A DNA stretch of 64,000 bases from Aurantiacibacter marinus (GTDB lineage Bacteria; Pseudomonadota; Alphaproteobacteria; Sphingomonadales; Sphingomonadaceae), in contig NZ_LDCP01000001.1 of assembly GCF_001021555.1 (NCBI RefSeq), positions 744,001 through 808,000 on the forward strand, read 5' to 3'. Positions 22,648-41,542 of the stretch are shown in pieces. Position 1 is the first letter of the stretch. Each line of letters opens with the position of its first letter. The notes beneath the pieces were generated by a model. That model was not told where the DNA came from. It did not search any database and was given only the letters and a program-made list of their open reading frames with translations. Position numbers and translations under genes: made by a program.

Positions 22648-22764
22648 GTCGAAAAACCCCACTCGTTACACTTGCCAGATTAGCGCGCCCCCGCCACACC
22701 GCAAGGGGACCGCCATTGCTTTTCAATCGCAGTTTGTTTGGGCATGGTGGCCTTAGGGGGAATA

Positions 22765-25218
22765 ATGGGGCAAGTAACGCAGAAGGTTCAGGTTGCAATT
22801 GTCGGGTCCGGCCCGGCTGGCCTGAGCGCCGCCGCCCATGCGGCCGCGCTGGGTATGAGCCATGTGCTGATCGAAAAGACGGATCACCTGTCCGATACGA
22901 TTTTCAAGTATCAGAAGGGCAAGCACGTGATGGCGACGCCCAGCAATCTGGTGCTGCGCAGCGATCTTGATTTCGATGCGGGCAAGCGTGAAGCCATTCT
23001 GGAAATGTGGGACAGCCAGATCGAAGAGGGCAAGGTCAATGTCCTTTACCGTGCCGAAGTCACCGCGATTACCGGCGAGCCCGGCGATTTTCTGCTGGAG
23101 ATCAAGGGCCAGGATACAGTTCAGGCAGAGCGCGTTGTGCTCGCCATTGGTACGCAGGGCAATCCCAACCGCCTGCGCGTTCCCGGCGCAGATTTGCCGC
23201 ATATCCAGTATCAGCTGGATGATCCGGGCGAGTATTTCGACGAGCATATTACAGTAGTCGGATCGGGTGATGCGGGTATTGAAAATGCGCTTGGCCTGGC
23301 GGCTGATCCAGCGCAGTCCAACACCGTTACCATCCTCAACCGCGGAGACAGCTTTGCCCGCGCCAAGGGGGCAAACGTCAAACTGCTGGAAGAGGCGGAG
23401 GGAGATGGCCGGATCATCGTGCGGCGGGAAACCAGCCCCAGTGAAGTAAAGCCCGGCGAACTGGTGCTGGAAACCCGCGACGGTGAAGAAGTGATCCGCT
23501 GCGACCGCATAATCGCGCGCACCGGTTCCAAGCCTCCGCGCGACTTCGTGACGGCGATAGGCGTCGATTTCACCAGCGAAGAGCGCGATGCCTTTCCGGC
23601 GCTGACGCAGACATTCGAAACAACCAAGAGCGGCGTCCACGTGATTGGTGCGCTGGCGGGCTATCCGCTGATCAAGCACTGCATGAACCAGGGCTATGAC
23701 GTGATCGAATTCCTTGCCGGGAACACCGATCTGAAGCCTGCCGACCAGCCCATTCTGGAAGAGAAATTTGCCCCGTTACCGGGCCGCCGATCAGTCGAGG
23801 AATGGCTGGATGTGTTCGGTGCGAATGTGGTGATCTTTGAAGAGCTTTCACCGCTGCAATTGCGCGAGCTCATGCTCGACTCCACGGTAAGCGCCTTCGA
23901 TGCGGGTGACATCGTGTTTACCCGTAACGATCCCGGGTCGTCCATGTTCGCCATTGCCGAAGGGTCGGTGGTGGTGGAGGTTAATCCGGAAGATCCGTCA
24001 ATTACCGTGCCGATCGAGCAAGGTTCCATCTTTGGCGAGGTCGGGCTGATTTCTGGCCGCAGGCGGGGGGCCACCGTTCGCGCGGCCGAACCCCTCGTCA
24101 CCATCGAACTTTCACGCAATGCCGCGCTAAAGCTGATCGCCACGGCACCAAGCGCGGGACGCGCGGTCAATCGAATCAGTGTGGAACGGCAATTCCTGCA
24201 GATGTTCGGATCGGGCCTCACACGCGAAGATGTGGCAGAGATTGTAGAAGCGGGCGAAGTGCAAGACGTGCGCGCGGGCGAAGTGGTGGTGACAGAAGGC
24301 GCGGACGACAAGGATATCTTCATTATCCGGCGCGGCTCCATGATCGTGGAAAAGAGCATTGGCGGGCAGCCGGTATTCCTCTCCTACCTGCCCGCAGGGT
24401 CCTATTTCGGGGAAATGGCGGTGATTGACGGATCGGCGCGCACTGCCACCGTCAAGGCGGCGATCAAAAGCGAAGTCGTGCGGTTTCCGGGCGAGATGTT
24501 CTTGCGGTTGCTGGATGCCAAGCCCGATCTGAAACACCGCGCGCTGGAAGACATGAAGGGCCGCCGCGAAGTCAGCGCCTTTGTCGAAGCGCGCAAGGAA
24601 AGCTTCGGCAGCGCAGCGGATATGTATTCCGAAACCGCCGCCTTCCTGGTCGACAACGGCATTGGCGAGGCAACCGATGTGTTGCTGATCGACGAGACAT
24701 TGTGCGTTGGCTGCGACAATTGCGAGAAGGCTTGCGCAGACAGCCATGACGGCCTCTCCCGGCTCGACCGCGAAGCGGGCCGGTCTTATGCGCACCTCCA
24801 CGTCCCCACGTCCTGCCGTCACTGCGAGCACCCGCACTGCATGGCCGATTGCCCGCCGAACGCAATCAAGCGCGGTCCTGACGGCGAAGTGTTTATTGAC
24901 GATACCTGCATCGGCTGCGGCAATTGCCAGCGCAACTGCCCTTACGGCGTGATCCGCATGGATGCGGTGCCGCCCAAAAAGCCGGGCCTGCTCAGCTGGA
25001 TGCTGTTTGGCGCCGGACCAGGGCCGGGTGAGGCAAGCTATGGCTGGCGCAAGAAACACGCAGATCCGGATAAGCCGAAGCAAGCCATCAAGTGCGATAT
25101 GTGCGCCGGTATCAAGGGCGGCCCCGCCTGCGTCCGCGCTTGCCCCACGGGTGCAGCAATCCGCGTGGCACCGGACAAATTCCTCAGCGTCACCAAATTG
25201 ACGGAAGAGGTCGAATAA
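22765..25218 (+). CDS. Flavoprotein / dual cyclic-nucleotide-binding / four-cluster ferredoxin fusion
   Basis: An 817-aa cytoplasmic redox protein. Residues 1-330 are a thioredoxin-reductase-like FAD/NAD(P) unit (GSGPAG at 14-19, GSGDAG at 166-171) without the CxxC dithiol, as in YpdA-type reductases. Two CNB domains follow (about 361-475 and 477-600), the second with a canonical phosphate-binding cassette (FGEMAVIDGSARTATV). Residues 647-793 hold 16 cysteines in four groups (CxxCxxCxxxC, CxxCx4CxxxC, CxxCxxCxxxC, CxxCx8CxxxC), a DmsB/NrfC-like ferredoxin for four [4Fe-4S] clusters. ATG 22765 has GGGGG 4 nt upstream; ATG 22744 is an alternative. The stop overlaps the next ATG. Inferred: an electron input module gated by a cyclic nucleotide. 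Confidence 0.88.
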   Translation: MGQVTQKVQVAIVGSGPAGLSAAAHAAALGMSHVLIEKTDHLSDTIFKYQKGKHVMATPSNLVLRSDLDFDAGKREAILEMWDSQIEEGKVNVLYRAEVTAITGEPGDFLLEIKGQDTVQAERVVLAIGTQGNPNRLRVPGADLPHIQYQLDDPGEYFDEHITVVGSGDAGIENALGLAADPAQSNTVTILNRGDSFARAKGANVKLLEEAEGDGRIIVRRETSPSEVKPGELVLETRDGEEVIRCDRIIARTGSKPPRDFVTAIGVDFTSEERDAFPALTQTFETTKSGVHVIGALAGYPLIKHCMNQGYDVIEFLAGNTDLKPADQPILEEKFAPLPGRRSVEEWLDVFGANVVIFEELSPLQLRELMLDSTVSAFDAGDIVFTRNDPGSSMFAIAEGSVVVEVNPEDPSITVPIEQGSIFGEVGLISGRRRGATVRAAEPLVTIELSRNAALKLIATAPSAGRAVNRISVERQFLQMFGSGLTREDVAEIVEAGEVQDVRAGEVVVTEGADDKDIFIIRRGSMIVEKSIGGQPVFLSYLPAGSYFGEMAVIDGSARTATVKAAIKSEVVRFPGEMFLRLLDAKPDLKHRALEDMKGRREVSAFVEARKESFGSAADMYSETAAFLVDNGIGEATDVLLIDETLCVGCDNCEKACADSHDGLSRLDREAGRSYAHLHVPTSCRHCEHPHCMADCPPNAIKRGPDGEVFIDDTCIGCGNCQRNCPYGVIRMDAVPPKKPGLLSWMLFGAGPGPGEASYGWRKKHADPDKPKQAIKCDMCAGIKGGPACVRACPTGAAIRVAPDKFLSVTKLTEEVE

Positions 25219-26087
25219 TGGCGACGGCACCAGACGGGCGCTTTGTGCAGGACGAGGCACGCCGCGATTCCGATCACGTCAGTTTTCTGAAGCATCGCCG
25301 CTGGCGGTGGGCGAAAATCGCGACTGTGTTGAGCATTGTCGCCATCGCCAGCTATCTGCTGGTCGACGTCACGCCGCGTCATAATGGCGGCAGCTGGTAT
25401 GGTTATACGCTGGGCACGATTGGTGCATTGCTCATCCTGTGGTTGAGCATGCTCGGCGTGCGCAAGCGGAACATGAGCGAAGGGCGCTGGAGTTTGAAGG
25501 CATGGACATCTGCGCATGTCTATCTCGGCCTGGCGCTGGTCGTAATCGCTACGCTGCACACCGGCTTTCAGCTTGGCTGGAATGTTCATACGCTGGCCTG
25601 GGCGCTGATGCTGGTGGTGGTGATTTCGGGCATTTACGGCATCAGTGCCTACGCCGCTCTGCCCAAGGAAATCAGCAGCAACCGGCGGCAGATGACCAAG
25701 GGGGATATGCTGGAAGCACTCGCCGCGATTGATCGCCAACTGGAAAGCGCTGCGCAGCCGCTTGCGCGCGATGAAGCCGATCTGGTGATTGGAGCGCTGG
25801 AGCAGGACCCGTTCGATTTCGGGATCGGTGCGCGCCTTTCAGGCCAGTATCGCCGATGCCGGACCATTGCCGCACTGAAGCAATTGAACGCCACTGCCCC
25901 GCATGAGGCTCCGGTGGAGAAAGTTGCGTCGCTGCTGCGAAAACGCCGCGCCCAACTGGAACAGATCCGCCGCCAGATGCGCCTGCGCGCATTGCTCGAC
26001 ATCTGGCTTTATGTACATGTGCCGGTCACGATCGCGCTGATTGCGGCGCTCACGGCGCATATCGTTTCCGTGTTCTATTACTGGTGA
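25218..26087 (+). CDS. Four-helix membrane protein, probable diheme cytochrome b
   Basis: A 289-aa inner-membrane protein. Predicted helices lie at about 33-50, 62-80, 97-115/125-143 and 262-288. H100 and H114 in one helix and H267 and H281 in the last are each separated by 13 residues, the HX13H spacing used by membrane diheme b cytochromes. A hydrophilic helical insert (about 150-255) with a basic coiled-coil-like end separates the two halves. The ATG overlaps the upstream flavoprotein stop (TAATG), so the ferredoxin domain above is the likely electron donor. I do not recognise a named family; the heme assignment is inferred from the histidine pattern. Confidence 0.8.
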   Translation: MATAPDGRFVQDEARRDSDHVSFLKHRRWRWAKIATVLSIVAIASYLLVDVTPRHNGGSWYGYTLGTIGALLILWLSMLGVRKRNMSEGRWSLKAWTSAHVYLGLALVVIATLHTGFQLGWNVHTLAWALMLVVVISGIYGISAYAALPKEISSNRRQMTKGDMLEALAAIDRQLESAAQPLARDEADLVIGALEQDPFDFGIGARLSGQYRRCRTIAALKQLNATAPHEAPVEKVASLLRKRRAQLEQIRRQMRLRALLDIWLYVHVPVTIALIAALTAHIVSVFYYW

Positions 26088-26097
26088 GGGGGCTGCG

Positions 26098-27825
26098 ATG
26101 AATATCCTGATACGCAGCATTGATGTCACGTCTGGCGGGCGGGAAATCGTGCGCGAGCGCGAGGCCGAGACAGACAAGCTCACCATTGGACGGGCCAGCG
26201 AGAACACCATCCATCTGCCCGATCTGGCGATTGAGCAGCAACACATCATCATCACGCCGGGCCTGAAGGACACGCTGGACGTCCGGGCAGCAGGAACGCT
26301 CGGATTCACCCTTGATGGCGTAGCTACCGAACATGCGGTGATTGATCCTGCCAAGGGCGGTGAAATCGGGCTGGGCGCATACCGCCTGCAATTTTCCCGC
26401 GATGATCAGGGCCGCGCCGTTATTACCCAGCGCAAGGTGGAAGCATCCACCGGCGCAGCGCGGGACCGACTGGCAGGTTTCGGCCTGTCGGGCACGTTAC
26501 CGGGCAAGCGGGCGATGGCGTGGGCAGGGGCGCTGGCCGTACTGATCGCATTTCTCGCTGTACCGATTTACTCCCACATGAATCGCCCGACGGGCGGCGA
26601 TCCCGGCGACGGGCCGGGCGCGACAATCATGGATGCAAGCTGGTCGACTGGAAGTTTATCCAGCGCCCATCACAGTCTGGAAGACAGTTGCGAAGCCTGC
26701 CATGTTGAACCCTTTGTCGCCGTGCGCGATGAAACATGTGTCAGCTGTCATGAAGGGCTGGGAGATCATGCAGAACCGCGGCGCCTTGTCACAGGCATGC
26801 CCGAATTTTCCGGCGGCGAAGCGGTTCTGTGGGATATTGCGCAAGCGTTCAACAAGCCCGGTCCGGGTGCCTGCACAGATTGCCATACGGAACATGAAGG
26901 CGCGGGCCGGATGGAGCCTACTTCGGAGCAATTCTGCGCCGACTGCCATGATACGCTGGATCGTCGTCTGACTGACACTGCGCTTGGCAATGCGCGCGAT
27001 TTCGGCACACTCCACCCGCAATTTCAGGCGTTGGTGCGCCCTGCACGCGGGGCCGAGGAGGAGCGCAGCGAGCTTGCAGCGGGCCTCAGGGACTTCAACG
27101 GGCTCAAATTTCCGCATGATGAACATCTCTCCACCACCAACGGTGTCGCGCGCATGGCTATGCGGCTGGACGGGGAAGTTCTGGATTGCGCCAGTTGCCA
27201 CACGCCTACTGCGGACGGCGTACGCTTCCTGCCGGTCGATATGGAGACGAGCTGCGAAAGCTGTCACAGCCTTGTCTATGATCAGGTCGGCAGCACTTTC
27301 CGTTCCTTAAGTCACGGTGATCTTGATCAGGTAGAGGCTGATCTGCGCGCCGCAGACCGTGCCCCGCGCCGACCGGTTGCAAGTGGCCGCCGCCGCCCCG
27401 GCCAATATGCCGAAGGCGGTATCTATTACGGTAACTTCAGCCGTGTTTCGGTGCCCAGTATTCGCAACGCGATGTCCGATGAAGGCATTTGCGGCGAATG
27501 CCATTACCGCGACACTTCGGCTACCGGCGCGCTTGCGGTGCATCCGGTGACGCAGCGAGACAGGTATTTCCAGCACGGCTGGTTTGATCATGACTCTCAT
27601 ACGCAGGAGGAATGCTCCACCTGCCACGCCGCCGATACATCGGATTCGGCGAGCGATCTGCTGCTGCCAGATCTGGAAAGCTGCCGTGATTGCCATTTGG
27701 GAGAGACCGCGCTTGAGGCTGATGTCCCCTCCAGCTGCGCCATGTGCCATTCTTATCACCCGCGTGACGGGGCTGCCGCTGCTCCGCCACAAATCGCGGC
27801 ACGAAGACGGGAAGGCGGCGGTTGA
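26098..27825 (+). CDS. FHA-domain / transmembrane / decaheme c-type cytochrome fusion
   Basis: A 575-aa protein. Residues 1-110 resemble an FHA domain (GRASENTIHL at 31-40, QQHI at 47-50). A single transmembrane helix is at about 140-158, followed by a periplasmic part with ten CxxCH heme motifs (CEACH, CVSCH, CTDCH, CADCH, CASCH, CESCH, CGECH, CSTCH, CRDCH, CAMCH). There is no cleavable signal peptide, so the helix acts as a signal anchor, leaving FHA in the cytoplasm. The serine that normally contacts phosphothreonine before the FHA histidine is replaced, so phosphopeptide binding is uncertain. The start is 10 nt after the cytochrome b stop. Likely role: accepts electrons from the b cytochrome and passes them into the periplasm. 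Confidence 0.88.
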   Translation: MNILIRSIDVTSGGREIVREREAETDKLTIGRASENTIHLPDLAIEQQHIIITPGLKDTLDVRAAGTLGFTLDGVATEHAVIDPAKGGEIGLGAYRLQFSRDDQGRAVITQRKVEASTGAARDRLAGFGLSGTLPGKRAMAWAGALAVLIAFLAVPIYSHMNRPTGGDPGDGPGATIMDASWSTGSLSSAHHSLEDSCEACHVEPFVAVRDETCVSCHEGLGDHAEPRRLVTGMPEFSGGEAVLWDIAQAFNKPGPGACTDCHTEHEGAGRMEPTSEQFCADCHDTLDRRLTDTALGNARDFGTLHPQFQALVRPARGAEEERSELAAGLRDFNGLKFPHDEHLSTTNGVARMAMRLDGEVLDCASCHTPTADGVRFLPVDMETSCESCHSLVYDQVGSTFRSLSHGDLDQVEADLRAADRAPRRPVASGRRRPGQYAEGGIYYGNFSRVSVPSIRNAMSDEGICGECHYRDTSATGALAVHPVTQRDRYFQHGWFDHDSHTQEECSTCHAADTSDSASDLLLPDLESCRDCHLGETALEADVPSSCAMCHSYHPRDGAAAAPPQIAARRREGGG

Positions 27826-27865
27826 GGGCAGGGCCCACAAGAAGGCCAGTTGAAGGGGAACCGCG

Positions 27866-28726
27866 ATGCTGATCGCGCAGATGACCGACATACATATCGG
27901 ATTTGAACCGGACGCCAGGCCGGAGGAGCTGAACCGTACGCGTTTTCGCGCCACGCTGGACAGATTGCTGGCCCAGCCCAACACGCCGGACCTGCTGCTG
28001 GTAACTGGCGACATTACTGATCGCGGAGACCGCAACAGCTTCACCCGCACGGCTGAAATGCTGGCCGAATGTCCGTTCCCGGTGAAGGCGCTGGTCGGCA
28101 ACCATGATAGCCGCGAGGAATTGTTGCGCGCTTTTCCCGGCACAGCAACCGACGAACATGGTTTTATCCAGTCCGCTTTTGTGCAGGACGGCCTGTTGGT
28201 GGTGTCGCTCGACACGTTCGAGCCGGGTCGCCACGGCGGAGCCTTTTGTACAAAGCGCCGTGACTGGCTCATGACCGTGCTGGAGGAACATTCAGACACG
28301 CCTGCAGTGATTTTCATGCACCATCCGCCTGTCGTTTCCGGCATTGCATGGATGGACCCGGACCCGTCAGAGCAATGGATCGCCAATCTCGCCGCTGCGC
28401 TTGAAGGGCGGGCCGATCAGGTGCAGGCCATCCATTGCGGCCATTTGCACCGGCAATTGAACGCGCGGTTTTGCGGTATTCCGGTCTCCGTCACGCCGTC
28501 TGTCGCGCCGCTGGTGTCAATGGATTTGCGTTCCATCAGCAGCGATATTCCTGATAGCCGCTCGCTTATTACTACCGAACCGCCCACCTATGCGCTGCAC
28601 CGCTGGGACGGGACCAATATTGTCAGCCATTATGAACGCGTGTGCGACTGGGAAACCATCGCCTATTACAGCCCGCATTTGCAGCCGATGATCCGCGAGA
28701 TGGAGGCGGAAAAGGGGACGGGATAA
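27866..28726 (+). CDS. CpdA-like class III cyclic nucleotide phosphodiesterase (metallophosphoesterase)
   Basis: A 286-aa calcineurin-fold enzyme with the full dinuclear metal set: DIH near residue 8, GDITDRGD near 50, GNHD near 80, HHPP near 155 and GHLH near 195. Length and motif spacing match E. coli CpdA (3',5'-cAMP phosphodiesterase), though members of the family also hydrolyse other phosphodiesters. No signal peptide, so cytoplasmic. It follows the decaheme gene by 40 nt on the same strand. Its position beside a protein with two cyclic-nucleotide-binding domains supports a cyclic nucleotide substrate. Confidence 0.85.
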   Translation: MLIAQMTDIHIGFEPDARPEELNRTRFRATLDRLLAQPNTPDLLLVTGDITDRGDRNSFTRTAEMLAECPFPVKALVGNHDSREELLRAFPGTATDEHGFIQSAFVQDGLLVVSLDTFEPGRHGGAFCTKRRDWLMTVLEEHSDTPAVIFMHHPPVVSGIAWMDPDPSEQWIANLAAALEGRADQVQAIHCGHLHRQLNARFCGIPVSVTPSVAPLVSMDLRSISSDIPDSRSLITTEPPTYALHRWDGTNIVSHYERVCDWETIAYYSPHLQPMIREMEAEKGTG

Positions 28727-28832
28727 TACACCGGGGGCCGCTCGCCCCATAACCATCGAACGACTGGTTGATTCCGGCGAGCACGAAGCGGAATGTAGCA
28801 GCGAAACCGTTCTGGAATTCTGGAATTACCGC

Positions 28833-28851
28833 AAAAAGCGAACGCGCTTTT
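28833..28851 (-). terminator. Probable intrinsic terminator of the minus-strand cytochrome operon
   Basis: Read on the minus strand, AAAAGCG, a four-base loop, then CGCTTTTT overlaps the TAA stop of the 1406-aa cytochrome. The stem is short but followed by a T run. It also separates the two converging operons. Confidence 0.5.
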
Positions 28852-31800
28852 ACTGCCCCGGCCTGCGCCGCCCTGCAACCGGCCCTGCACCGGGCTGCCA
28901 AGCCGACATATCCGGCTCGTCAGAAACGCGCCACGGCACACCAGCTCTGGTCAGGAACAGGTTTTCCATTTCGCTGCGGTTGAATGGCCGAGAGCCAAGC
29001 CTGCCGAATACAGCCATCTGCCCGCCTGTTTCGTCCACCGCCCGGTCCCGGTCCAGGCCCTTGCTCAGCGCGATCGCGGGCGTTTCCGTTCGCGCCCATG
29101 CCACCATTTGGGGCATCGGTGCGGGGCTGAATCCGTAGAAATTGCGCTGGCTTTCGGGGCTGGTCAGTTGCAGCACTTTCAACCCGTTCACCCCGTCCGC
29201 AACATAGGCGAACAGGCTGGCGTTGGTACTGGCGATAATTACGTCTTCAGCATCGGTCATCGTGCCGCCGAGTGTTTCCATGCGGTATATCCGCGGGGCT
29301 AGCGGGCGGGTGACGTCGACAATTCCCAGTCCTTCCTGCTTGGCCGCCACGTAAAGATAGGTGCGCGCGATATACATGCGCTGGGCATTGGCCATCGGCA
29401 CAGTGCCTTCAGGCCGCGCAACGGGATTGGAAAGCTGAGTTACATCGAATAGCTTTACACCCTCGGCATCGGTGACCCAGAGATAGCGGAATTGCAGAGT
29501 GGTCGCGCGCGCGTCCGTCAGTTGGCGCACGGCGGCAAGGCGCGGATTGGCCGGGTCTGCCAGATCGACCACCACCAGCCCGACATCGGCTGTGATATAG
29601 GCCACTGCGCCTGCCAACGTGATATGCCGCGCACCGGTCAGCACGCCGTCCGGGTTCCACGCGTCAGACCCATCAGCATAGGTCAGGCGGTCCAGATTGT
29701 TGTTGCGCAGTTCCCCGTCAGCCAGCGTATCCACATTGATCATGATCAGCCCTTCAACCGCATCGGTGACGGCGGCGTAGGAATAAATCGGCAGGAACGG
29801 CTGTTCCTGGTTCATTGCGCGCAGTTCTGCGGTGTTGCGGGTTGGTGCGATGGGCTGCGTTGTGGCGAGCGCCATGCAGGTGGCGTTTTCGCTGCTCACA
29901 TGGGTATCATGCCCCAGCGGGCTGAACGGCGCGGTGATGATGCGTTCGGAAAAGCCCTTGTTGGCGATGCTGGCGATATCATAGACACGGAAGCCTCCAC
30001 TGCCTTCTGCCACGAACATATACTCGCCGCGCATCTGCAGGCAGCCGACACGGTCGCCTGTGCCTTCATGGACATTGGCGAATTCTTCGAGCGCGCGGGT
30101 TTCGCCCGACAAGTCTGCGTCAAAGATATCGCCGCGTGCCCAATTGATCAGTTCGCGGCCATTATCGTCCACATGCATGCGGTAGTAATCGGGATAGGCA
30201 TAGCGGTGGAGATAGCTGCCGAGCACGGCTTGCGGTTCTTCCCATTCGGTAACGCGCGTGGCCTCGAAGCCGCCTTCCTGTCCGGTCCATGCATTCATCC
30301 CCACGAAGTTTACAAAATTGGTGCCGAGCAGCAGCAGCTGCGACATGATTGCATTGTTGTCTTCTGCTTCAGACAGGTGGCAATCGGAACATTGCTTGGT
30401 CTCTGTCAGGCGCACCGTATGCGGGAAATGCGGCGCGAAGGCCTGGCTGGAAAAGCCCGCCGCGCTGATCGGCGGCTGCTGCACATAGATCCGTTCGCGG
30501 TTGATATTGGTGGAGCTGAGGATCAGCGCGCTGGTGGAGCGGACAGGTGCAATCTGGTTGCCTTTCGTCGTCTGGTGAATGCCCAGCTGGAACATCTGGT
30601 CGCGCGCGACCTGCGGGTTGTAGGTTGCAAAATTGCGCGTCGTTTCGCCTTCATAACGGTGGCTTTCGCTTTGCCAGTTCGCCTCGATCGGCAGATGGCA
30701 CCCTCCGCAACTTGTCGTCCATGACAGGTGACAGGTGAAACACGCCATCTCCTCTTCACCATGGGCGCGGTTTTCCAGAGCGACGCCGGGGCCAAATTCG
30801 AAGCGGCCTGTTTCCGCGCCGTCCGCGCTCATCAATTTGGAACGGGCGGACAGGGCGTTGAAGTCGGGATGCGTTGGGTCAACGCTGTCGCGCACCAGGC
30901 TGACTTCCCATTCCAGAGAAGGATCCACGATGCTTCGCTGGATCAGCGTGCGGCGTCCGTTGCCTTCTTCGGTCCATTCAAAGCGGCGCTGGCCATCGGG
31001 GTTGCGCAGCAAGGCAAGGTCGTGCCCCTGCGGCGGGGCCGCCGGGCCGGAGGTGCGCAGGGTGGGATAATCGTCTGCCGTGCCGTGGCAATCCTTGCAG
31101 CCGATCTCCACTGCATTGGCGACTTCGCCGTAGATCAGGCCATTGCCGTGACTGTCCTGCGCGTAATGGCAATCGGCGCATTGCATGCCGGCTTCGGCAT
31201 GGATGCTCATCAGATGCACGGCTTCGCCTGGATTGGTGCCGGGCTGCACGAATTGTTCTTCTCCGTCGCGGCGGAAGCGCTGGCGCCAGCGATCTTCATG
31301 GCGGGCGGCATCTTCGGGAGTGTCGGTTTCCTCTGGCGGACGGATGATTTCTCCGTCCTCGTCAACCAGATTGCCTTCGCGGTCGCGGCGGAAGATGCCC
31401 CGGAAGGTCCAGCCGTGGCCATGGTAATCGGCAAACTGCGTGTCTTCGAGCTCTGAATTGAGATCGTAGACGTTGCGCAGGAAATCCATGTCGCCCCAAA
31501 GACCGCGCGGGGCGGCGCCTTCGGGATTGCGGTCCAGCACTTCGCGCACTTGTTCTGCGGTGGGGTAGCGTTGGCGCAGGAAGAATTCCTCATACTCCTC
31601 GTCGCTCATTCCCGCAGGGCGTGGCGTGGTATTTTCCGGCCCGGGCCACATGAAGGGCGCGTCGCTTTCATAATCCCACATCGTATAACCGAGGTAGGAA
31701 TTGAGGAAGATATTGGGCTGGTGCATGTGGCAATTCATGCACTGCGCAGTAGGAATGGCGCGGGTGAACACGTGGCGCAGCGGGTGACCGCGTTCACGGT

Positions 31801-33070
31801 CATCCGGCGGGTCGAGCGACAGGGCGCCGCCTTCGTCATCATGGCTTTCACCGGGGCCGATCAGATCGCCGTGCTCCGGCTCATCGCCATGCTCTTCGCC
31901 GTGATCGCCGGAATAGTCATCGTGCAGGCGATTGATCTGTTGCGCGATGGTCGGATCGGAAGTCACTGTCTGCCCGTCGCGCCCGTATTGCGCGTAGATC
32001 AGCGAGTGGCGCGGTTCGCGGTCATTGGCGTAAACCACATGGCACGATGCGCAGCCGGAATGGCGATAATCGCCAGGCTGGTCGTTCGTCCCCATGAACC
32101 AGGTGAAGGGATCGTTCAGGCGGGTCTTGTGAATGTTCAGGACCGGTATGGCGGCGCGCAGGCCGGTGCCGGGCCCCCGATTGGATTGGCGCAAGTCAGG
32201 ACGACCGGGTTCTTCCAGGCGTTGCAGCAGACCGGTCGGATTGGGCAGGCCGATTTCAGGGAACTGCGTGTTGATCGTGCGGCCTCCACGCTCGAAAACG
32301 CGGAATACATCGCCCGGCGGTACGACATGCCACGTCGGCATCGGGTACAACGTGGCGAGCGCGCCGCGTGCGGCCTGCTCTTCGGTCACCGTGCCATGCG
32401 GTTCGCCTGGACTTTGGATGACTGCCGCTTCGCCCTCGCGGGTGTAAGCCTCGCCAAGCACGTAATTCTTGTAGGGCAAAATGCCGTTATTGTAGGCTGC
32501 GCCGCCCCACAGCATCGCGCCTGATGCCATGAGAGAACGCTCCGCCGCCTCGATCACCGGCATATGGCACGATCCGCAGGCTTCCCGCGCCACGCGGTAA
32601 TCGCTGGGGTTCACAAAGCGCACGAAAATCGGGCTTTCGCGGTTAAGCAGGGAATAGCTGCGTTCCGGATTGGCGGAGCTGGGATAGTGCCAACTGCTTG
32701 GATAGGTGGGCAAAACATGCGCTGCTTCACGGGCAGTGATGTATTCCGCCGCTTCAAAACCAAGATCGGGATCGCCGTAAACATCCGCGTTGCCGCCGTG
32801 GCAATCGGTACAGCCAAGCACGACCGCGTCCGATACATGCATGGTCGGTGCATCGGTGCGCACGTGGCAGGAATTGCACCCCGCGGACTTTTCATCAGCG
32901 AGCATTTGGGTCTGGTTTTGCGGGGCGGGCGGCGCGATGACGCCAGCGGCTTCATAGTCCCGCACCACTGCGGTTTCATATCCTTCTGCCAGCAGGCTGC
33001 CGGTTCCAAGCATGGCCGCACAGCCGGCAAAGAAGACCGTGACGATTGTGGTGGGGGATAGTCGCCGCAT
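28850..33070 (-). CDS. Large decaheme c-type cytochrome with C-terminal LVIVD beta-propeller
   Basis: A 1406-aa exported protein with a signal peptide (about 1-29). Ten CxxCH motifs are spread over about residues 60-930 (CNSCH, CTDCH, CGSCH, CASCH, CMNCH, CADCH, CKDCH, CFTCH, CGGCH, CSDCH) with many extra histidines for the distal ligand. A His/Asp/Glu-rich segment at about 382-413 looks metal-binding. From about 980 to 1340 there are LVIVD-type blades (for example GLVVVDLADPANP, GLGIVDVTRPLAP, GLKVLQL), predicted to form a beta-propeller. The ATG overlaps the stop of the barrel gene upstream. No CXXC lipobox was seen. Likely periplasmic or surface-exposed electron carrier, with the propeller as docking or substrate domain. 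Confidence 0.87.
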   Translation of the reverse strand: MRRLSPTTIVTVFFAGCAAMLGTGSLLAEGYETAVVRDYEAAGVIAPPAPQNQTQMLADEKSAGCNSCHVRTDAPTMHVSDAVVLGCTDCHGGNADVYGDPDLGFEAAEYITAREAAHVLPTYPSSWHYPSSANPERSYSLLNRESPIFVRFVNPSDYRVAREACGSCHMPVIEAAERSLMASGAMLWGGAAYNNGILPYKNYVLGEAYTREGEAAVIQSPGEPHGTVTEEQAARGALATLYPMPTWHVVPPGDVFRVFERGGRTINTQFPEIGLPNPTGLLQRLEEPGRPDLRQSNRGPGTGLRAAIPVLNIHKTRLNDPFTWFMGTNDQPGDYRHSGCASCHVVYANDREPRHSLIYAQYGRDGQTVTSDPTIAQQINRLHDDYSGDHGEEHGDEPEHGDLIGPGESHDDEGGALSLDPPDDRERGHPLRHVFTRAIPTAQCMNCHMHQPNIFLNSYLGYTMWDYESDAPFMWPGPENTTPRPAGMSDEEYEEFFLRQRYPTAEQVREVLDRNPEGAAPRGLWGDMDFLRNVYDLNSELEDTQFADYHGHGWTFRGIFRRDREGNLVDEDGEIIRPPEETDTPEDAARHEDRWRQRFRRDGEEQFVQPGTNPGEAVHLMSIHAEAGMQCADCHYAQDSHGNGLIYGEVANAVEIGCKDCHGTADDYPTLRTSGPAAPPQGHDLALLRNPDGQRRFEWTEEGNGRRTLIQRSIVDPSLEWEVSLVRDSVDPTHPDFNALSARSKLMSADGAETGRFEFGPGVALENRAHGEEEMACFTCHLSWTTSCGGCHLPIEANWQSESHRYEGETTRNFATYNPQVARDQMFQLGIHQTTKGNQIAPVRSTSALILSSTNINRERIYVQQPPISAAGFSSQAFAPHFPHTVRLTETKQCSDCHLSEAEDNNAIMSQLLLLGTNFVNFVGMNAWTGQEGGFEATRVTEWEEPQAVLGSYLHRYAYPDYYRMHVDDNGRELINWARGDIFDADLSGETRALEEFANVHEGTGDRVGCLQMRGEYMFVAEGSGGFRVYDIASIANKGFSERIITAPFSPLGHDTHVSSENATCMALATTQPIAPTRNTAELRAMNQEQPFLPIYSYAAVTDAVEGLIMINVDTLADGELRNNNLDRLTYADGSDAWNPDGVLTGARHITLAGAVAYITADVGLVVVDLADPANPRLAAVRQLTDARATTLQFRYLWVTDAEGVKLFDVTQLSNPVARPEGTVPMANAQRMYIARTYLYVAAKQEGLGIVDVTRPLAPRIYRMETLGGTMTDAEDVIIASTNASLFAYVADGVNGLKVLQLTSPESQRNFYGFSPAPMPQMVAWARTETPAIALSKGLDRDRAVDETGGQMAVFGRLGSRPFNRSEMENLFLTRAGVPWRVSDEPDMSAWQPGAGPVAGRRRPGQ

Positions 33071-35055
33071 CAGTAGCTCAGTGTCGCATTGGCGAGGACG
33101 GAATAATAGACATTATCACCGCCCCGGTTGTCGAAAAGATCCTGAAAGCCCTCACCAGCTACCAGAGCGGCCGCAGACAGGCGAAATACAAGGTTCTGAT
33201 TTGCGCGTGGTCGCCAGATCGCAGCTGTCGACACATCATAGCCGATGTCGGCCGGGATCGAACCTTCGACGCGCAATGTTTCCAGCACAGTCGTATCTTC
33301 AAACCACAAATGGTTGGCGTTGGTCGATATGCGCAGTTCCGGCGTAAGATCGAAATCCGCGCCAAGGCCGGTCAGGATCAGGCCAGGATTGTTGAAGTTG
33401 CTTTGCCCCTGTTCTTTCGAACTGCGCAGCGAATTGAGCAGGCCGTTGCGGCCATTCAGGCTGATCGCGCGCCCGCCGCCGGCAAAGGGGATGGTCTGGC
33501 GCATCCAGTACGACGTATCTGCGCCTGCAAAAATCGGATTTTCGAAGATTGCATCATAGCCCGCCTCGACATTGTTGAACGGATCGGAATCGCCATTGGC
33601 GAACAAGGCGGAAAGCCGGAAGCGCGCCCAGTCCCGGTCATAACTGAGTTCCGCTGCACCGAAGAAAGAGCGGATATCGGCAGGCTGGCCGGTAAAGATA
33701 GAATTGCGGTCTTCGCCAAAGGCCCCGTATAGGCTGGCGGTGACATTGATGCGCCCGATGCGGCCATCGGCGTTGTAACCTACATAGACAACATCGTAAT
33801 CGCGCCCACGCAGATCGCCCAGCAGGGCGGGGCGCACCGGAAATCCGTTGTCGTCAATCTCCACATCGCCGCCTTCGCGGTTCATGTTGTAGACCAGCGT
33901 GAACTGGCTGGTGAGCGCGGGTATGAGGAAGTCCTGCCGGTAAGCGTTGGCAACAAAAACAAAATCGCTGCGTGGTGCTTGCACGACCGAGTTCAGGCCT
34001 GAATTAGTGTCTTTCTCCAGTCGCCAGAACGCGCCCAGATTATACTGGAACCGGTTGTTGTCGCGCGTGCCGAAGAAGCGCAGGCCTAGCTGGCTGTCCT
34101 GAAACAGAAAGCCGCGGAAATCGGCCTGAAATGGCTGGATGCCGATGCGGAAGCTGTCAAAATCGTACCGGTCCGATGTGTTGCGGATGTGATAGTCGAA
34201 AAAGGCTTCCTGCACGCCAAGGAACTGGTCGGTGCGATTGGACGCGCGGCTCGGCTCTACCAGAAGCACGCGCCGTTCGGGCACATCGACATGACTGATG
34301 TTGTAAGCCAGCGTCAGGCGGTATTCGACGTCAGGCGGTTTGTAAGCGGTGGACCCCTTTATCAGCGCGGCGCCGAAGATGAATGTCTGGCTGAATACGG
34401 GCGAAAAATCATTGCCGAACACATCCAGCCGGTCTGGATCGGATGTAGTCTGCACGCCTACGGGGATGGGGAAGGTGCGCGGTTCGATTACCGTATCGCT
34501 GATGGCATTGGCGACAAAGAACCAGTCATTGCCTTCCAGCCCAAGGAAGCGGGGTGTCCAGCAATCATCGCTGCCATAGGGGTAGGGAACGCCAGCAGGA
34601 TCGTAAATGCGGCCTTCCTCGGCGGCCCGGGCGCGCTCTTCCTCTTCCGCAGCGGCGCGAAGTCCGGCGCGGTATTGCCGTTCTTCATCCGAATTGATGC
34701 AGATCGGGCGATCGCCCTTGTAGGTATTCTGGTTGTAGGGATCGAGCGCGTCTTCGGTCACAAGGCCAAGGTTCTGGATCAGCCGCCAGCGATCGGGGAT
34801 GGGTATCTGATCAGCCGGAAAAGCTTGCGGCGGCGGAGCGCGCACAGCTCCTCGATTATCCTGGGTAACGGGATCGGGCAGTTCACCGGTGAAGCCGGGG
34901 CGGCGACGACCATCGATTATATCCGGATCGATCGGATCGGCAGGATCTACTTGCGTACCGAGGCCGCCATCGGGGCGCTCTTGCGATTGCTCTTGGGGCG
35001 CATCCTGGGATGGGGCCGCTTGAAGCAAGATGAGAAGGGCTAGGGCTGTGCTCAT
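33070..35055 (-). CDS. Outer-membrane beta-barrel protein of the cytochrome cluster
   Basis: A 661-aa protein with a short hydrophobic leader (about 1-16), a Pro/Asp-rich linker to about residue 80 and then alternating amphipathic strands up to the C-terminus, which ends ANATLSY with an aromatic final residue as expected for BAM substrates. It has no CxxCH motif. I do not recognise the family. Its stop overlaps the start of the decaheme-LVIVD cytochrome (TGATG), and it begins 3 nt after the GlcG-type lipoprotein. The arrangement recalls porin-cytochrome conduits, where a barrel sheathes a multiheme cytochrome across the outer membrane; the analogy is inference. Confidence 0.75.
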   Translation of the reverse strand: MSTALALLILLQAAPSQDAPQEQSQERPDGGLGTQVDPADPIDPDIIDGRRRPGFTGELPDPVTQDNRGAVRAPPPQAFPADQIPIPDRWRLIQNLGLVTEDALDPYNQNTYKGDRPICINSDEERQYRAGLRAAAEEEERARAAEEGRIYDPAGVPYPYGSDDCWTPRFLGLEGNDWFFVANAISDTVIEPRTFPIPVGVQTTSDPDRLDVFGNDFSPVFSQTFIFGAALIKGSTAYKPPDVEYRLTLAYNISHVDVPERRVLLVEPSRASNRTDQFLGVQEAFFDYHIRNTSDRYDFDSFRIGIQPFQADFRGFLFQDSQLGLRFFGTRDNNRFQYNLGAFWRLEKDTNSGLNSVVQAPRSDFVFVANAYRQDFLIPALTSQFTLVYNMNREGGDVEIDDNGFPVRPALLGDLRGRDYDVVYVGYNADGRIGRINVTASLYGAFGEDRNSIFTGQPADIRSFFGAAELSYDRDWARFRLSALFANGDSDPFNNVEAGYDAIFENPIFAGADTSYWMRQTIPFAGGGRAISLNGRNGLLNSLRSSKEQGQSNFNNPGLILTGLGADFDLTPELRISTNANHLWFEDTTVLETLRVEGSIPADIGYDVSTAAIWRPRANQNLVFRLSAAALVAGEGFQDLFDNRGGDNVYYSVLANATLSY

Positions 35056-35058
35056 CGC

Positions 35059-37056
35059 CTATAATCCCTGACACACGTTCTGGGCGGCAGTATCGAGGAA
35101 CGGTGCGAACGGGCAATTGATATAGCGCAGGCGCACGCCGCGCCCGTTTACATTGACTACGATCCGGTCTGCGCGGATGGCCGGATCGGCATTGCCAAGG
35201 GTGCCCAGGCGGACACCTGCGTTATTAAGGCCAAGGAAGCTGACCATGTCATCCTGATCGATCCCGTCGCCTGACACGCCGATGCCGCCGATCAGCTCTC
35301 CGGCGCGATATATCGGCACGCTGCCGGGGAAAATCTGGATGCCATTGGCGATGCGCGGGCTGCCAGAAGGCGAATTCGGCACTTTCGTGCAGCCGCGCTG
35401 CGTATCTGCGTTTGCACCATTGGACGCGACATATACCACGTGGTCCACGATATTGGGCACCACCAGATCGGTTTGCAGGCCAACCGCAAAGGGGCTGAAT
35501 GTGTCCGATGCCAATACCGAAAGCGGGCCGGGTATCTGGCCCACTTCGCCATCGGGGAAGTATGGGCGCGACAGATTGCCGCCCGAACGATCTGCGAAAG
35601 CAAATGTACCGGTCAGCGCATTTGGATCACCGAGAAAACTCCGCACACGCGTGACGTAATCCGCGCCGCTCAGGCCGCCCGGCGGTGCCGGAACAGCTTG
35701 CAACTGGGGCGCTGCAACTGCGCTTGAGAAGAATGTCGCAGTGCGTGCTTTTTGCAAGGACACATCGACCCCGAAGATCGGCCCGTCGGGAGAGCGCACA
35801 ATGCCAAGCACTTCGCCATGCGTATCGACCACGCTGATGCTCGCCTGCATCCGGCTGTCGAGCGGGCGGCGGATTTGCGCACGGGCCCGGCTGAGGACGG
35901 CGAACGCTTCTTCCATGATTGCGCGCACTTCCCCAGCGCTCAGCGGCTGGGCAACGCTGGCCGCATCGGTTCCGCCGCGAATGGGGTACCGCGCATTGCC
36001 CGCACCATCGCTGAGGACAAATGCATCGGGGTTGCTGAATTCGGCAGGCGTGGCCGCGCGCATGCCGGATGCTTCGCTTCCGTAAGCTGTCCCGGCGCGA
36101 AGCACGCCGGTGTTATAACCTTCCACGGCCAGCAGCATGCCCGCAGTTCCGCTGATCGCGGCGAAATTGCCCGATGACGGCGCGATTTGCGCTTCTGTGA
36201 CATCGCTGAAACGCAGGCTTGTCCCGTCCACGAAAATCCGGTCCGCACGAATGTCGGTGGGCGCCATGAAGCCCTGCGCGCCTGCCACGGCAATCGCTTC
36301 TTCCGCGTCGTTTTCCGTATCGAGGATATTGGCGTCAAATCCGTAATTGCCATCACCCATCACGCCGATACCGCCCACGACGACGCCGTTCTTGTACAGT
36401 GGAATTCCGCCGGGATCAGCGGAAAGGCCCAGCGGAGAACGCTTGGGCCCGATCAGCCCGTCGCTCGCCCGTGCCGACAAGTCGGAACACGGTAATTGGC
36501 TGAACTGCACGCCGAACAATGGCCCGCTTTCCAGCCCCACGGTGGTTGGTGCTGGTGGAAAATGTTCCTGCACGATCATGCTGGCGGTGCGGGTGGTAAA
36601 AGCGTTGCCTCCGCTCGACAGATACGCGCCTGTTACTGCCTTCGCTATGGCGGCGACCTGAGAAGGAACTGCCACGCCTTGCAAGCCAAGCATGTCACCC
36701 TGCGGCAGAGGCGCGCCGATGCGGTTGCGGCTGACCACGGCTTCCGGATTCGCGCCGTTCATGGCAAACACGGCCAGCACATTGCCGACCCGGTCCGTCA
36801 CCGCGATCATGGAGGGCAAACCTCGTGTCTGCGCCTCGTTTACCGCTTGTGCGATGATGGTCTGCACTTCGGAAACAGAAAGCGCCTCTTGCGCTGGTGG
36901 GGCAAACAACCGGCCTGATGGCGGAGGAGTGGGCGTTGGTGTGGGGACCACGGCATTGCCGCTGCCGTTCTGCCCGCCCTGCGATCCACCGCCGCCGCAA
37001 CTCGCCAGCACCAGGGCGCTTGCCGTCAGGAAAGTGATCCCCCTTCGCAAATGCAT
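35059..37056 (-). CDS. Lipoprotein with two GlcG/HbpS-type heme-binding domains
   Basis: A 665-aa lipoprotein. The signal ends in LASC with the lipidated cysteine C20, followed by a Gly/Pro-rich linker. Two copies of the GlcG/HbpS fold follow (about 45-300 and 370-640). The first opens with VQTIIAQAVNEAQTRG and the second with VRAIMEEAFAVLSRARAQ; both contain the family ending GGIGVxGDG (GGIGVMGDG and GGIGVSGDG). Family members bind heme or cobalamin and sense or scavenge them. The gene overlaps the c554-like cytochrome stop upstream (TAATG). A tandem, lipid-anchored version in a cytochrome operon suggests heme delivery or an electron relay. Confidence 0.83.
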   Translation of the reverse strand: MHLRRGITFLTASALVLASCGGGGSQGGQNGSGNAVVPTPTPTPPPSGRLFAPPAQEALSVSEVQTIIAQAVNEAQTRGLPSMIAVTDRVGNVLAVFAMNGANPEAVVSRNRIGAPLPQGDMLGLQGVAVPSQVAAIAKAVTGAYLSSGGNAFTTRTASMIVQEHFPPAPTTVGLESGPLFGVQFSQLPCSDLSARASDGLIGPKRSPLGLSADPGGIPLYKNGVVVGGIGVMGDGNYGFDANILDTENDAEEAIAVAGAQGFMAPTDIRADRIFVDGTSLRFSDVTEAQIAPSSGNFAAISGTAGMLLAVEGYNTGVLRAGTAYGSEASGMRAATPAEFSNPDAFVLSDGAGNARYPIRGGTDAASVAQPLSAGEVRAIMEEAFAVLSRARAQIRRPLDSRMQASISVVDTHGEVLGIVRSPDGPIFGVDVSLQKARTATFFSSAVAAPQLQAVPAPPGGLSGADYVTRVRSFLGDPNALTGTFAFADRSGGNLSRPYFPDGEVGQIPGPLSVLASDTFSPFAVGLQTDLVVPNIVDHVVYVASNGANADTQRGCTKVPNSPSGSPRIANGIQIFPGSVPIYRAGELIGGIGVSGDGIDQDDMVSFLGLNNAGVRLGTLGNADPAIRADRIVVNVNGRGVRLRYINCPFAPFLDTAAQNVCQGL

Positions 37057-38426
37057 TATTGCAGCCGCTCTATCGCGACGACTGCCTGACCCAGAGCGCT
37101 TCGGAAATCTGATGGACGATAGGTTTCGGGGCTGCGCACGGCAGCATAGGCGCGGTTGATGTTGGTGCGGATGCCCGCTGCTGCACCCACGGTCACGCGG
37201 CCATCGCTCACCAGCGCATTGAGAAGTGTATCGATTGCCATCACGGCCTGCACCGAACCGGCATAGTCGGTGAAGCGTGCAGAGGTTGCACCATTGCCGA
37301 TCCGTTCAATTACGGCAAAGGCGCTGTCTGGCCCATAGGGACGCGCTGCCAGTGCGCCGGACAGTTCCAGCGCTTCACTGCGCAGCGCAATCGCTGCTGT
37401 TTGCGCCTCTGCGCGGCCGTCATCCATGGCTGAGTGGAACTGGCGGCTGGCGCTGCGGAAGCTTTGCGCGCGCCCGGGCGCCAGCGTATCCGCAACGGCC
37501 GAAAGCATGATGATATTTTCATCATTGAAGGGCGGTTGGCCGAAGGCGATCGGCCGGCCCGGATTTGTCTCGAACGTCAGACGCCGGTCATCGCCATCAG
37601 TGATGGAACGGTGACAGCTGTGGCAGTCATAGAAATACAGTTGCGGGAATACACCTTGGGTGCCGAAAGCCGGACGGGCGAACAGGTCCGTCGCGCGCGC
37701 TACTGCCTCTGCCTGGCCAACGGCCCACAATTGCACAGCATCGGGCCGGCCCTTGCGCTGGATATAATCGTCATCGACATCGTGGTGCTGCTGGAATGCG
37801 CTGAACAGATCGAGTTCGAAAGTGATGCGAGGGTGGCCTGCCGCCATCATTTCATGGGTGACAAACTGCCCCGTTTCCGTGCTGCCATAATGGCAATCAA
37901 GACATACACGCGCCCGCGTTGTCGGCTGTTCGAGCGGGACCAGGCCATTGCGGACATTGGCCGGGTGCGTCCCGCGCACTTCGTAATGGCTCGACAGCCA
38001 ACCGATAGAGGCGCCGTGGCAGCTTTCGCAGCCAACGCCGTCGTCGAGCCGGAAGCGCGGTCCGCGTTCGGAGGCGGGCGCAAAAGTCGAATGGCAACCG
38101 AGGCAGGACTGCGCCGATTGCGGATCGCCCAGACCCAGCGTGCCCGCGATCTGGCGCGAACGGCGTGAACCCAGGATTGCATAAGCGCGGCTGTGTGCGC
38201 CGCTAACGGCAGAGGGGCTTTGCCAAGTTGCGATTTCGTCCTGCCGGACAATCGCGCCATTGCCTTCGCTGCGGCCATGGCAGGTCGACCCTGCGCAGGA
38301 AGCAACGCCGGTAAAGGAATAGCTGCCTTGCGCATTCAGCGGTTCGCCCGCTGTCAGACCTAGTGTCAGGGTAAGGATGGCCGCCATTGCAAGCGCGAGC
38401 ACGGTATATCGCGCGTGGCTGACCAT
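37056..38426 (-). CDS. Pentaheme c-type cytochrome, cytochrome c554-like
   Basis: A 456-aa periplasmic cytochrome. Signal peptide about 1-32. Heme motifs in order are an unusual CAGSTCH (CX4CH), then CLGCH, CESCH, CLDCH and CHSCH, all within about residues 40-270; the C-terminal 180 residues are helical and lack heme motifs. The combination SxCAxxxCHG plus SCLGCHS and GVGCESCHG is typical of cytochrome c554/multiheme oxidoreductase folds. The ATG at 38426 is preceded by AGGGGGA; an upstream in-frame start at 38480 would bury the signal peptide. First cytochrome gene of the minus-strand operon, with the GlcG gene overlapping its stop. Confidence 0.85.
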   Translation of the reverse strand: MVSHARYTVLALAMAAILTLTLGLTAGEPLNAQGSYSFTGVASCAGSTCHGRSEGNGAIVRQDEIATWQSPSAVSGAHSRAYAILGSRRSRQIAGTLGLGDPQSAQSCLGCHSTFAPASERGPRFRLDDGVGCESCHGASIGWLSSHYEVRGTHPANVRNGLVPLEQPTTRARVCLDCHYGSTETGQFVTHEMMAAGHPRITFELDLFSAFQQHHDVDDDYIQRKGRPDAVQLWAVGQAEAVARATDLFARPAFGTQGVFPQLYFYDCHSCHRSITDGDDRRLTFETNPGRPIAFGQPPFNDENIIMLSAVADTLAPGRAQSFRSASRQFHSAMDDGRAEAQTAAIALRSEALELSGALAARPYGPDSAFAVIERIGNGATSARFTDYAGSVQAVMAIDTLLNALVSDGRVTVGAAAGIRTNINRAYAAVRSPETYRPSDFRSALGQAVVAIERLQ

Positions 38427-39256: not shown

Positions 39257-39328
39257 GGACAGATTCCCTTGTGTGTTGATCATCTATAACACGATTGCGC
39301 AGCACTGCGTTGATTGATTGCAGCCAAT

Positions 39329-41404: not shown

Positions 41405-41542
41405 TAAATCCCCCTCTTTCATCCTCTCTTGCAGCGCGCGACTATGCATTTGCAAGCGTGCAGGCATTGATCATTGGAGAAAAAACGCGCCATAGTGCAG
41501 CGGGAACAGAAAATTATAACGGCATAAGGGGAGGGCCGCGAT

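Follow-up and report, generated by a model that had tools for sequence, protein, structure and literature searches.

The window analyzed here, 64,000 nucleotides of the Aurantiacibacter marinus genome (contig NZ_LDCP01000001.1, positions 744,001 to 808,000), carries two converging gene sets, A-B-C-D on the plus strand and H-G-F-E on the minus strand (letters A through J are labels for genes of the window), which form a real, conserved, co-inherited system and no chance assembly. The set is a porin-cytochrome conduit (PCC) in kind and is not wholly new. With slightly better than even confidence we read it, from the domains and motifs of its proteins, as an outward, two-module electron conduit across the envelope that would be driven by NAD(P)H and respond to cyclic nucleotides. 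The two sets comprise the following genes:

22765..25218, plus strand: A, YpdA/TrxR-like Pyr_redox flavoprotein with two cNMP_binding domains and a DmsB/HycB-like 4x[4Fe-4S] domain, 817 residues (Pfam/NCBIfam and PDB sequence matches)
25218..26087, plus strand: B, five-helix diheme cytochrome b of the PCC3/PCC4 inner-membrane type, 289 residues (conserved His, motifs, hydropathy)
26098..27825, plus strand: C, FHA-like cytoplasmic N terminus, one transmembrane helix and a periplasmic decaheme part, 575 residues (heme motifs, hydropathy, Pfam)
27866..28726, plus strand: D, metallophosphoesterase resembling class III cAMP phosphodiesterases (SpdA/CpdA), 286 residues (NCBIfam, metal-site motifs)
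28850..33070, minus strand: E, decaheme cytochrome c (hemes in residues 65 through 898) with a C-terminal LVIVD propeller, 1406 residues (heme motifs, Pfam)
33070..35055, minus strand: F, predicted outer-membrane β-barrel of 18 strands with an AlgE-like fold, 661 residues (AlphaFold2, Foldseek)
35059..37056, minus strand: G, lipoprotein with HbpS-like domains, 665 residues (Pfam, lipobox-like motif)
37056..38426, minus strand: H, periplasmic pentaheme cytochrome, c554-like, 456 residues (Pfam, heme motifs)

A conserved gene set in two converging modules

Each of the two sets looks like an operon, given the one-base overlaps (the end of A with the start of B, E/F and G/H) and the short gaps (F/G, 3 bases; B/C, 10; C/D, 40). 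All genes named in an earlier note on this DNA are open frames where it had placed them, with the start of C corrected to 26098. The claim of that note that a component is encoded for every envelope layer is borne out by the gene set, which is co-inherited in 19 of 61 genomes, and its heme counts of 10, 10 and 5 agree with the c-type heme motifs counted (10 CxxCH each in C and E; four CxxCH and one CX4CH, CAGSTCH, in H). Searches of Pfam and NCBIfam recognize C, E and H as multiheme c cytochromes and return one match below cut-off for B and none for F; the NCBIfam matches considered for A are the best 25 of 117. As the note had also stated, the matches listed for the ten proteins scanned include no catalytic subunit of a molybdenum enzyme or of a nitrite reductase. 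The two cyclic-nucleotide-binding (cNMP) domains of A, gene D and the cyclase gene J had been overlooked.

Among 61 related genomes, 19 have all of E, F, C and H, and the remaining 42 have none of the four. A is found in those 19 at an identity of at least 67% over most of its length, and 40 of the 42 genomes without the system give only partial matches to it, the best being 35% over residues 8 through 269. Four of the 19 A matches are in two or more pieces, as are some E and F matches; in-frame stops lie within some genome matches (E in G031, G359 and G432; C in G015).

When named genomes were scanned with E, at least 593 relatives came up, of which the best 80 loci were kept; by their titles these belong to Sphingomonadales or to metagenome-assembled genomes named to class or phylum level only. 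H-G-F-E stand in order on one strand in 63 of the 64 loci with 6.5 kb or more of sequence before E, and D-C-B-A converge on them in 49 of the 63 loci with 9.8 kb or more downstream of E. Among the 14 loci that depart from this arrangement, L036 holds A-D, differently arranged; for the remaining 13, B is encoded elsewhere in the genome, beyond the flank seen. The search for B covered 20 genomes and was positive in 18, that is, in 17 of 19 distinct genomes, G451 and G456, whose matches coincide in position, being evidently one genome. G272 and G405 have a complete D-C-B-A set far away from H-G-F-E. Thirteen plasmid records also carry E, 12 of them from Sphingobium and the other from Sphingopyxis; both plasmids examined retain H-G-F-E, one with A-D adjoining and the other without A-D within 14 kb on either side. 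The possibility that A-B-C and H-G-F-E are mere neighbors was rejected on the outcome of the search for B.

The inner half: A, B and C

The 16 cysteines of A, in four groups, are kept in 53 of 53 homologs, which is enough for four [4Fe-4S] clusters; the Fe-S part is a Fer4_11 (PF13247) domain. PDB sequence matches tie A to YpdA and to the regulatory domains of PKA and PKG. The cassette Glu and Arg of its cNMP domains, whose conservation counts in favor of the reading adopted here, are present in 53/53 and 53/53 homologs for domain 1 and in 52/53 and 53/53 for domain 2.

B has five hydrophobic segments by hydropathy. Histidines 100, 114, 267 and 281 are invariant in 61 of 61 homologs and make up two HX13H pairs, which lie within or border the third and fifth segments; the two WX3HX13H motifs are complete in 60 of 61 homologs, and SGXXG is found in 50. 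According to He et al. (2017, PMC5566968), the inner-membrane proteins of PCC3 and PCC4 have five helices in common, the third and fifth with WX3HX13H and the fourth with SGXXG.

All 10 CxxCH motifs of C are kept in 61 of 61 homologs. A transmembrane helix is predicted at residues 139 through 157, the FHA-like character of the N terminus is weak (Pfam FHA, E = 0.042), and a local Pfam match to MtrC/MtrF domains II/IV spans 57 residues (43.1 bits, cut-off 30). PDB sequence searches with the B, E and F profiles gave no matches, and those with H and C gave weak matches only.

The outer half: E, F, G and H

E has 10 CxxCH motifs in 85 of 87 homologs (the remaining two have 8 and 9) and LVIVD repeats by Pfam. 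Its heme core aligns with an ExtM-like 12-heme cytochrome over 342 columns in a profile comparison (E = 1.5e-28), a value partly inflated, as between multiheme proteins generally, by shared heme motifs. Against an ExtM cut-off of 800 bits, this 12-heme protein scores 226.6 and E itself 59.5; matches to ExtN and ExtO in E are local and below cut-off. ExtM-like cytochromes with 10 to 12 hemes and ∼760 to 860 residues are also encoded in four other genomes of the phylum (L110 through L113).

The AlphaFold2 model of F has 18 strands and a disordered N terminus (mean predicted local distance difference test score [pLDDT] 64; 336 of 661 residues at 70 or above). Its top Foldseek match is AlgE (E = 5.9e-16; TM score 0.69 by target length, 0.47 by query length), and F homologs end in Tyr or Phe in 27 of 27 cases. 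G matches HbpS-like domains (Pfam, 3.2e-22) and carries a lipobox-like motif in 68 of 75 homologs by a loose pattern and in 63 by a strict one; the four CxxCH and one CX4CH of H are kept in 71 of 71.

Cyclic-nucleotide genes

D resembles SpdA (1.7e-41) and CpdA (4.4e-22) in NCBIfam, both below the curated cut-off, with metal-site motifs kept across 60 sequences; it is matched in 59 of the 80 loci, many of them truncated. J, a cyclase, is matched in 27 of the 80, in 19 of them at an identity of at least 50%. From the two cNMP domains of A together with D, we infer that the system may be gated by cyclic nucleotides.

Distant relatives

The phylum samples, which were not identical, comprised 398 genomes for E and 396 each for F and B. 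E gave 19 matches among the 398 (11 over the whole or nearly the whole protein and eight locally) and F in 11 of 396, all strongly. B was matched in 18 of 396: the same 11 genomes as F, three further strong cases (G061, G094 and G211) and four weak ones (G338, G349, G082 and G086). G451, E-positive in the 398 sample, is unlisted in the 396 samples despite having F and B and is taken as not drawn. The gene order varies among these relatives: G424, from another part of the phylum, has A-B-C-G-F-E-H on one strand; G432 has A-B-C-H, a glutamate dehydrogenase gene and G-F-E, also on one strand; in G317, A-B-C converges with H-G-F-E; and G212 shows A-B-C and G-F as far as the contig end, with E and H not seen. 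G094 and G211 encode A and B as a single fused protein of 1118 and 1123 residues (L152, 9850-13206; L154, 3052-6423). A nine-heme C-like protein adjoins the fusion gene in both (L152 and L154).

A proposed path for electrons

On the reading we favor, NAD(P)H would pass electrons to the FAD of A and on to its four [4Fe-4S] clusters, from there to diheme B, and across the inner membrane to the ten periplasmic hemes of C. Pentaheme H may then ferry them over the periplasm to decaheme E, linked to the barrel F and the lipoprotein G, and E would reduce an acceptor at or beyond the outer membrane, candidates being Fe(III) or Mn(IV) minerals, humics and oxyanions. The two cNMP domains of A could set the flow, together with the phosphodiesterase D and, in certain lineages, with the cyclase J.

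The link to NAD(P)H is suggested by the fold of A, by its overlap and occasional fusion with B, by the FNR-type partner in PCC4-like clusters (see below) and by the recurrent NADP-specific glutamate dehydrogenase gene nearby. Two flavoprotein types, one TrxR-like and the other FNR-like with 2Fe-2S (in G338 and G086), accompany the same pair of cNMP/4Fe-4S protein and B, which argues for NAD(P)H rather than quinone. NAD(P)H has a low potential, and this favors outward flow. A bolder form, which we hold tentatively and consider clearly short of even, is a second-messenger-gated electron valve found in aerobes: binding of a cyclic nucleotide to A would divert electrons of NAD(P)H from the cytoplasm into an unbroken chain of proteins reaching the outer membrane, the inner and outer modules being retained together even where their genes lie apart.

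Several observations weigh against the favored reading. A-B-C stands without a listed match to E or F in G061, G094 and G211, which means that the inner module can have another use; the linkage of the genes, which the earlier note had raised, thus holds in one direction, the E-F-G-H set coming with A-B-C and A-B-C occurring without E or F in these three sampled genomes. L078 has E and F without a match to G or H, and no B was found in the genomes of L065 and L096 (the two loci sit on contigs of 8,960 and 5,877 bases). Cyclase J is confined to some lineages. Upstream of A and of H, motifs for FNR, Fur and Irr are not enriched, as counted with consensus patterns against mononucleotide shuffles.

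The same counts showed no motif excess upstream of A. Upstream of H, 4 of 71 sequences have a CRP-like motif with one mismatch or none (0.2 expected), an excess set aside as too small for use; another, upstream of D (5 of 60, 0.2 expected), was set aside because it lies mostly within the coding end of C.

The remaining points against the favored reading concern the outer membrane. The modeled 18 strands of F would make a smaller barrel than those of the Mtr type, which have 26, and its AlgE-like fold would fit a substrate pore as well. A structure model of the E heme region (residues 28 through 1000) had a pLDDT of 31.6 and was discarded. E has no conserved lipobox: the strict pattern is found in 0 of 87 homologs and the loose one, the same as used for G, in seven, including the E of the window. 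gspG, a marker of type II secretion, is absent from the genome of the window and from 37 of 37 same-genus genomes searched, 19 of which have the system; it is present in 14 of 24 genomes from other families of the order. gspD gives two matches below cut-off in the genome of the window; to judge from the gene next to it, one of these may be a pilus secretin. With neither lipobox nor gspG, a recognized route to the surface is missing for E. The cell-surface destination proposed in the earlier note is an interpretation and not an observation.

This missing route keeps a periplasmic reductase fed by a pore a serious rival, if an unlikely one. Here F would be an AlgE-like uptake pore, and E, with G, would reduce imported selenite, tellurite or another oxyanion in the periplasm, nothing being wired outward. 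The heme core of E does resemble ExtM-like 12-heme cytochromes, and the best PDB structure match of F is the alginate pore AlgE. Erythromonas ursincola, a sphingomonad, reduces tellurite by an NADH-dependent membrane activity. Its tellurite reductase was considered as a product of such a locus and rejected: the mass-spectrum match of the purified band is GroEL, which leaves the activity with no gene assigned to it. A scheme of this kind has been proposed for Geobacter ExtI/ExtM, where the porin ExtI of the extHIJKLMNOPQS cluster is tied to selenite and tellurite reduction (PMC5877670). However, the likeness to ExtM covers part of E and falls far below the cut-off, no rhodanese or Rieske match is among those of the ten proteins scanned, the ExtN/ExtO matches remain local, and ten hemes with a propeller do not in themselves indicate a site for a small substrate.

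Quite unlikely, in our judgment, is flow in the opposite direction, from extracellular Fe(II) or Mn(II) through E and onward to B and quinone. Reduction of NAD(P)+ by Fe(II) is thermodynamically uphill, and B is tied to NAD(P)H by the Pyr_redox flavoprotein A, whose gene immediately precedes that of B and in G094 and G211 forms a single gene with it. The inward model was drawn by He et al. for PCC3 and PCC4, whose inner-membrane protein has the hallmarks seen in B, and an Erythrobacter Mn(II) oxidizer is listed there with PCC3 (PMC5566968).

Very improbable is a redox sensor in place of a respiratory conduit, its FHA-like and cyclic-nucleotide domains reporting the redox state of the envelope to regulators and adjacent secreted proteins: cNMP domains, a weak FHA-like domain, a cyclase, a phosphodiesterase and two-partner secretion genes do share the neighborhood, but 25 conserved c-type heme motifs seem excessive for the purpose, and neither the cyclase (27 of 80 loci) nor the TpsB-type transporter (4 of 80) is a constant neighbor.

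Neighboring genes

Four further genes of the window flank the two sets:

21745..22662, minus strand: TPR protein of CcmH/CycH (NrfG-like) type, oriented divergently to A (Pfam, NCBIfam)
38531..39283, minus strand: I, secreted protein of 250 residues, an optional neighbor (match in 21 of 80 loci)
39329..41467, minus strand: J, CHASE2 sensor with adenylate/guanylate cyclase, an optional neighbor (Pfam)
41543..42904, plus strand: NADP-specific glutamate dehydrogenase, a recurrent neighbor of varying position (NCBIfam)

The TPR protein matches TPR_CcmH_CycH in Pfam (1.3e-13) and NrfG below cut-off (1.2e-5), recurs in 52 of 80 loci, many of which are truncated, and is a probable accessory for heme attachment. 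I, for which a FecR-like label might be considered, has no Pfam or NCBIfam match. A glutamate dehydrogenase gene lies near E in 31 of the 80 loci, upstream in 12 (nine on the opposite strand, three on the same) and downstream in 19 (18 opposite, one same); it also lies near the cluster in G432, G317 and the Sphingopyxis plasmid. Examples of the gene are L107, 3936-5270, and L117, 7151-8506. Its recurrence in varying place and orientation suggests a functional tie via NADP(H).

Positions 13774-21656 of the window hold a two-partner secretion pair, a large protein of 2079 residues (TpsA-like by place) and a ShlB-type transporter. Directly downstream of the gene for the large secreted-type protein lies that of a TPR-CHAT protein of 1010 residues (10742-13774). 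On an S. herbicidovorans plasmid, a ShlB gene and a 6.3-kb gene stand immediately upstream of H; the four loci counted above have a TpsB like that of the window near E.

Comparison with known systems

If the favored working holds, many Sphingomonadales (Erythrobacter, Novosphingobium, Sphingobium, Sphingomonas and others), which are usually treated as aerobes, could export electrons through the envelope. This would bear on mineral reduction, on the transformation of pollutants and metalloids and on the redox balance of biofilms. It would also amend the model for PCC3 and PCC4, as the partner of the inner-membrane diheme protein is here a flavoprotein of NAD(P)H type that carries cyclic-nucleotide domains, and a link to quinone is not obvious. 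A PCC4-like cluster (L158, 1446-12214) that encodes an FNR-type 2Fe-2S flavoprotein and a cNMP/4Fe-4S protein likewise questions the quinone link proposed for PCC4.

CymA provides the electron input of Mtr-type systems; the input here would be a flavoprotein with a diheme b. The local match of C to the MtrC/MtrF domains passes its cut-off, yet C is membrane-anchored. OmcA/MtrC matches in NCBIfam are below cut-off for C and H and absent for E, the DmsE-type match of H is also below cut-off, and F has no match to a barrel family or to a PDB sequence. What is shared with MtrCAB and PioAB is a barrel with multiheme cytochromes across the outer membrane (PMC5566968). With the Geobacter Ext cluster, the common features are the ExtM-like heme core of E and a porin gene adjoining those of cytochromes (PMC5877670). 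The differences are the want of rhodanese and Rieske matches noted above and the combination of ten hemes with a propeller in E; as E misses the ExtM cut-off and its ExtN/ExtO matches are local and below theirs, the locus falls outside the ExtM/KL/N/O/P families.

PCC3 likewise unites a porin, extracellular and periplasmic multiheme cytochromes and an inner-membrane protein with the hallmarks of B (PMC5566968, PMC10734462). Its cytochromes, however, are mostly richer in hemes (medians of 34 and 21, at 22 to 39 residues per heme) and have repeats, and its porins are larger (PMC5566968, PMC10734462); E, C and H have 10, 10 and 5 hemes at 141, 57.5 and 91 residues per heme.

PCC4 comprises a porin, cytochromes with 4, 5 and 10 hemes and an inner-membrane protein, to which subgroup II adds an upstream PF13247 gene; in its published form, it is without an extracellular cytochrome (PMC5566968). 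B has the five segments, two WX3HX13H motifs and SGXXG of the PCC4 inner-membrane protein, and a PF13247 Fe-S gene, A, stands directly upstream of it as in subgroup II. The trio of 4, 5 and 10 periplasmic hemes is not matched, the counterparts being 5 and 10 and, as third, the ten-heme propeller protein E.

Four clusters of the phylum sample (G338, G086, G082 and G349) each encode an H-like, an A-like and a B-like protein and a ten-heme cytochrome and roughly fit PCC4, an assignment made from its description in text. Profile E-values there range from 5e-35 to 1.5e-51 for A, from 5e-11 to 9e-14 for B and from 7e-12 to 6e-17 for H; the C profile matches the ten-heme protein of G082 (1.9e-8) and G338 (1.4e-7) and a five-heme protein of G086 (3e-4), and hhalign joins B to the B-like protein of G338 (E = 2e-11). 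Pfam confirms cNMP and 4Fe-4S domains in the A-like proteins of G338 and G086, the two scanned; in both, the flavoprotein is a separate FNR-type FAD/NAD/2Fe-2S protein, unlike in A. The E, F and G profiles have no match in the stretches of the four genomes, and F does not match a 459-residue protein of G338 (E = 0.14), a candidate barrel read from its ends only.

A very similar published description is that of group 1 PCCs in ghost-rock (Sterkfontein) metagenomes, 11 clusters in which a 4- to 5-kb decaheme gene stands beside a porin of ∼20 strands; in seven of them, a gene for a ferredoxin-NADP reductase is close by (PMC13264449, 2026). Compared by description only, this group agrees well with E, F and A, and the system is therefore likely to have been encountered before; it was neither named nor analyzed further there, and the study proposes that electron export may occur in most of its heterotrophs with a PCC (PMC13264449). 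We found no paper devoted to this cluster, as judged by the titles and abstract beginnings of open-licence PMC articles; print elsewhere may differ. The description of the locus in the earlier note as a candidate new system is not borne out as it was put, given these likenesses, namely the PCC4-like inner half and the very similar unnamed group of 2026 (PMC5566968, PMC13264449). Its statement that the set matches no described cluster stands in part: no one-for-one match to the Mtr, Omc or Nrf/Dms families was seen. By sequence comparison, the inner half resembles the PCC4-like clusters, whereas the outer half (E, F and G) and the fused cyclic-nucleotide flavoprotein appear to differ from them.

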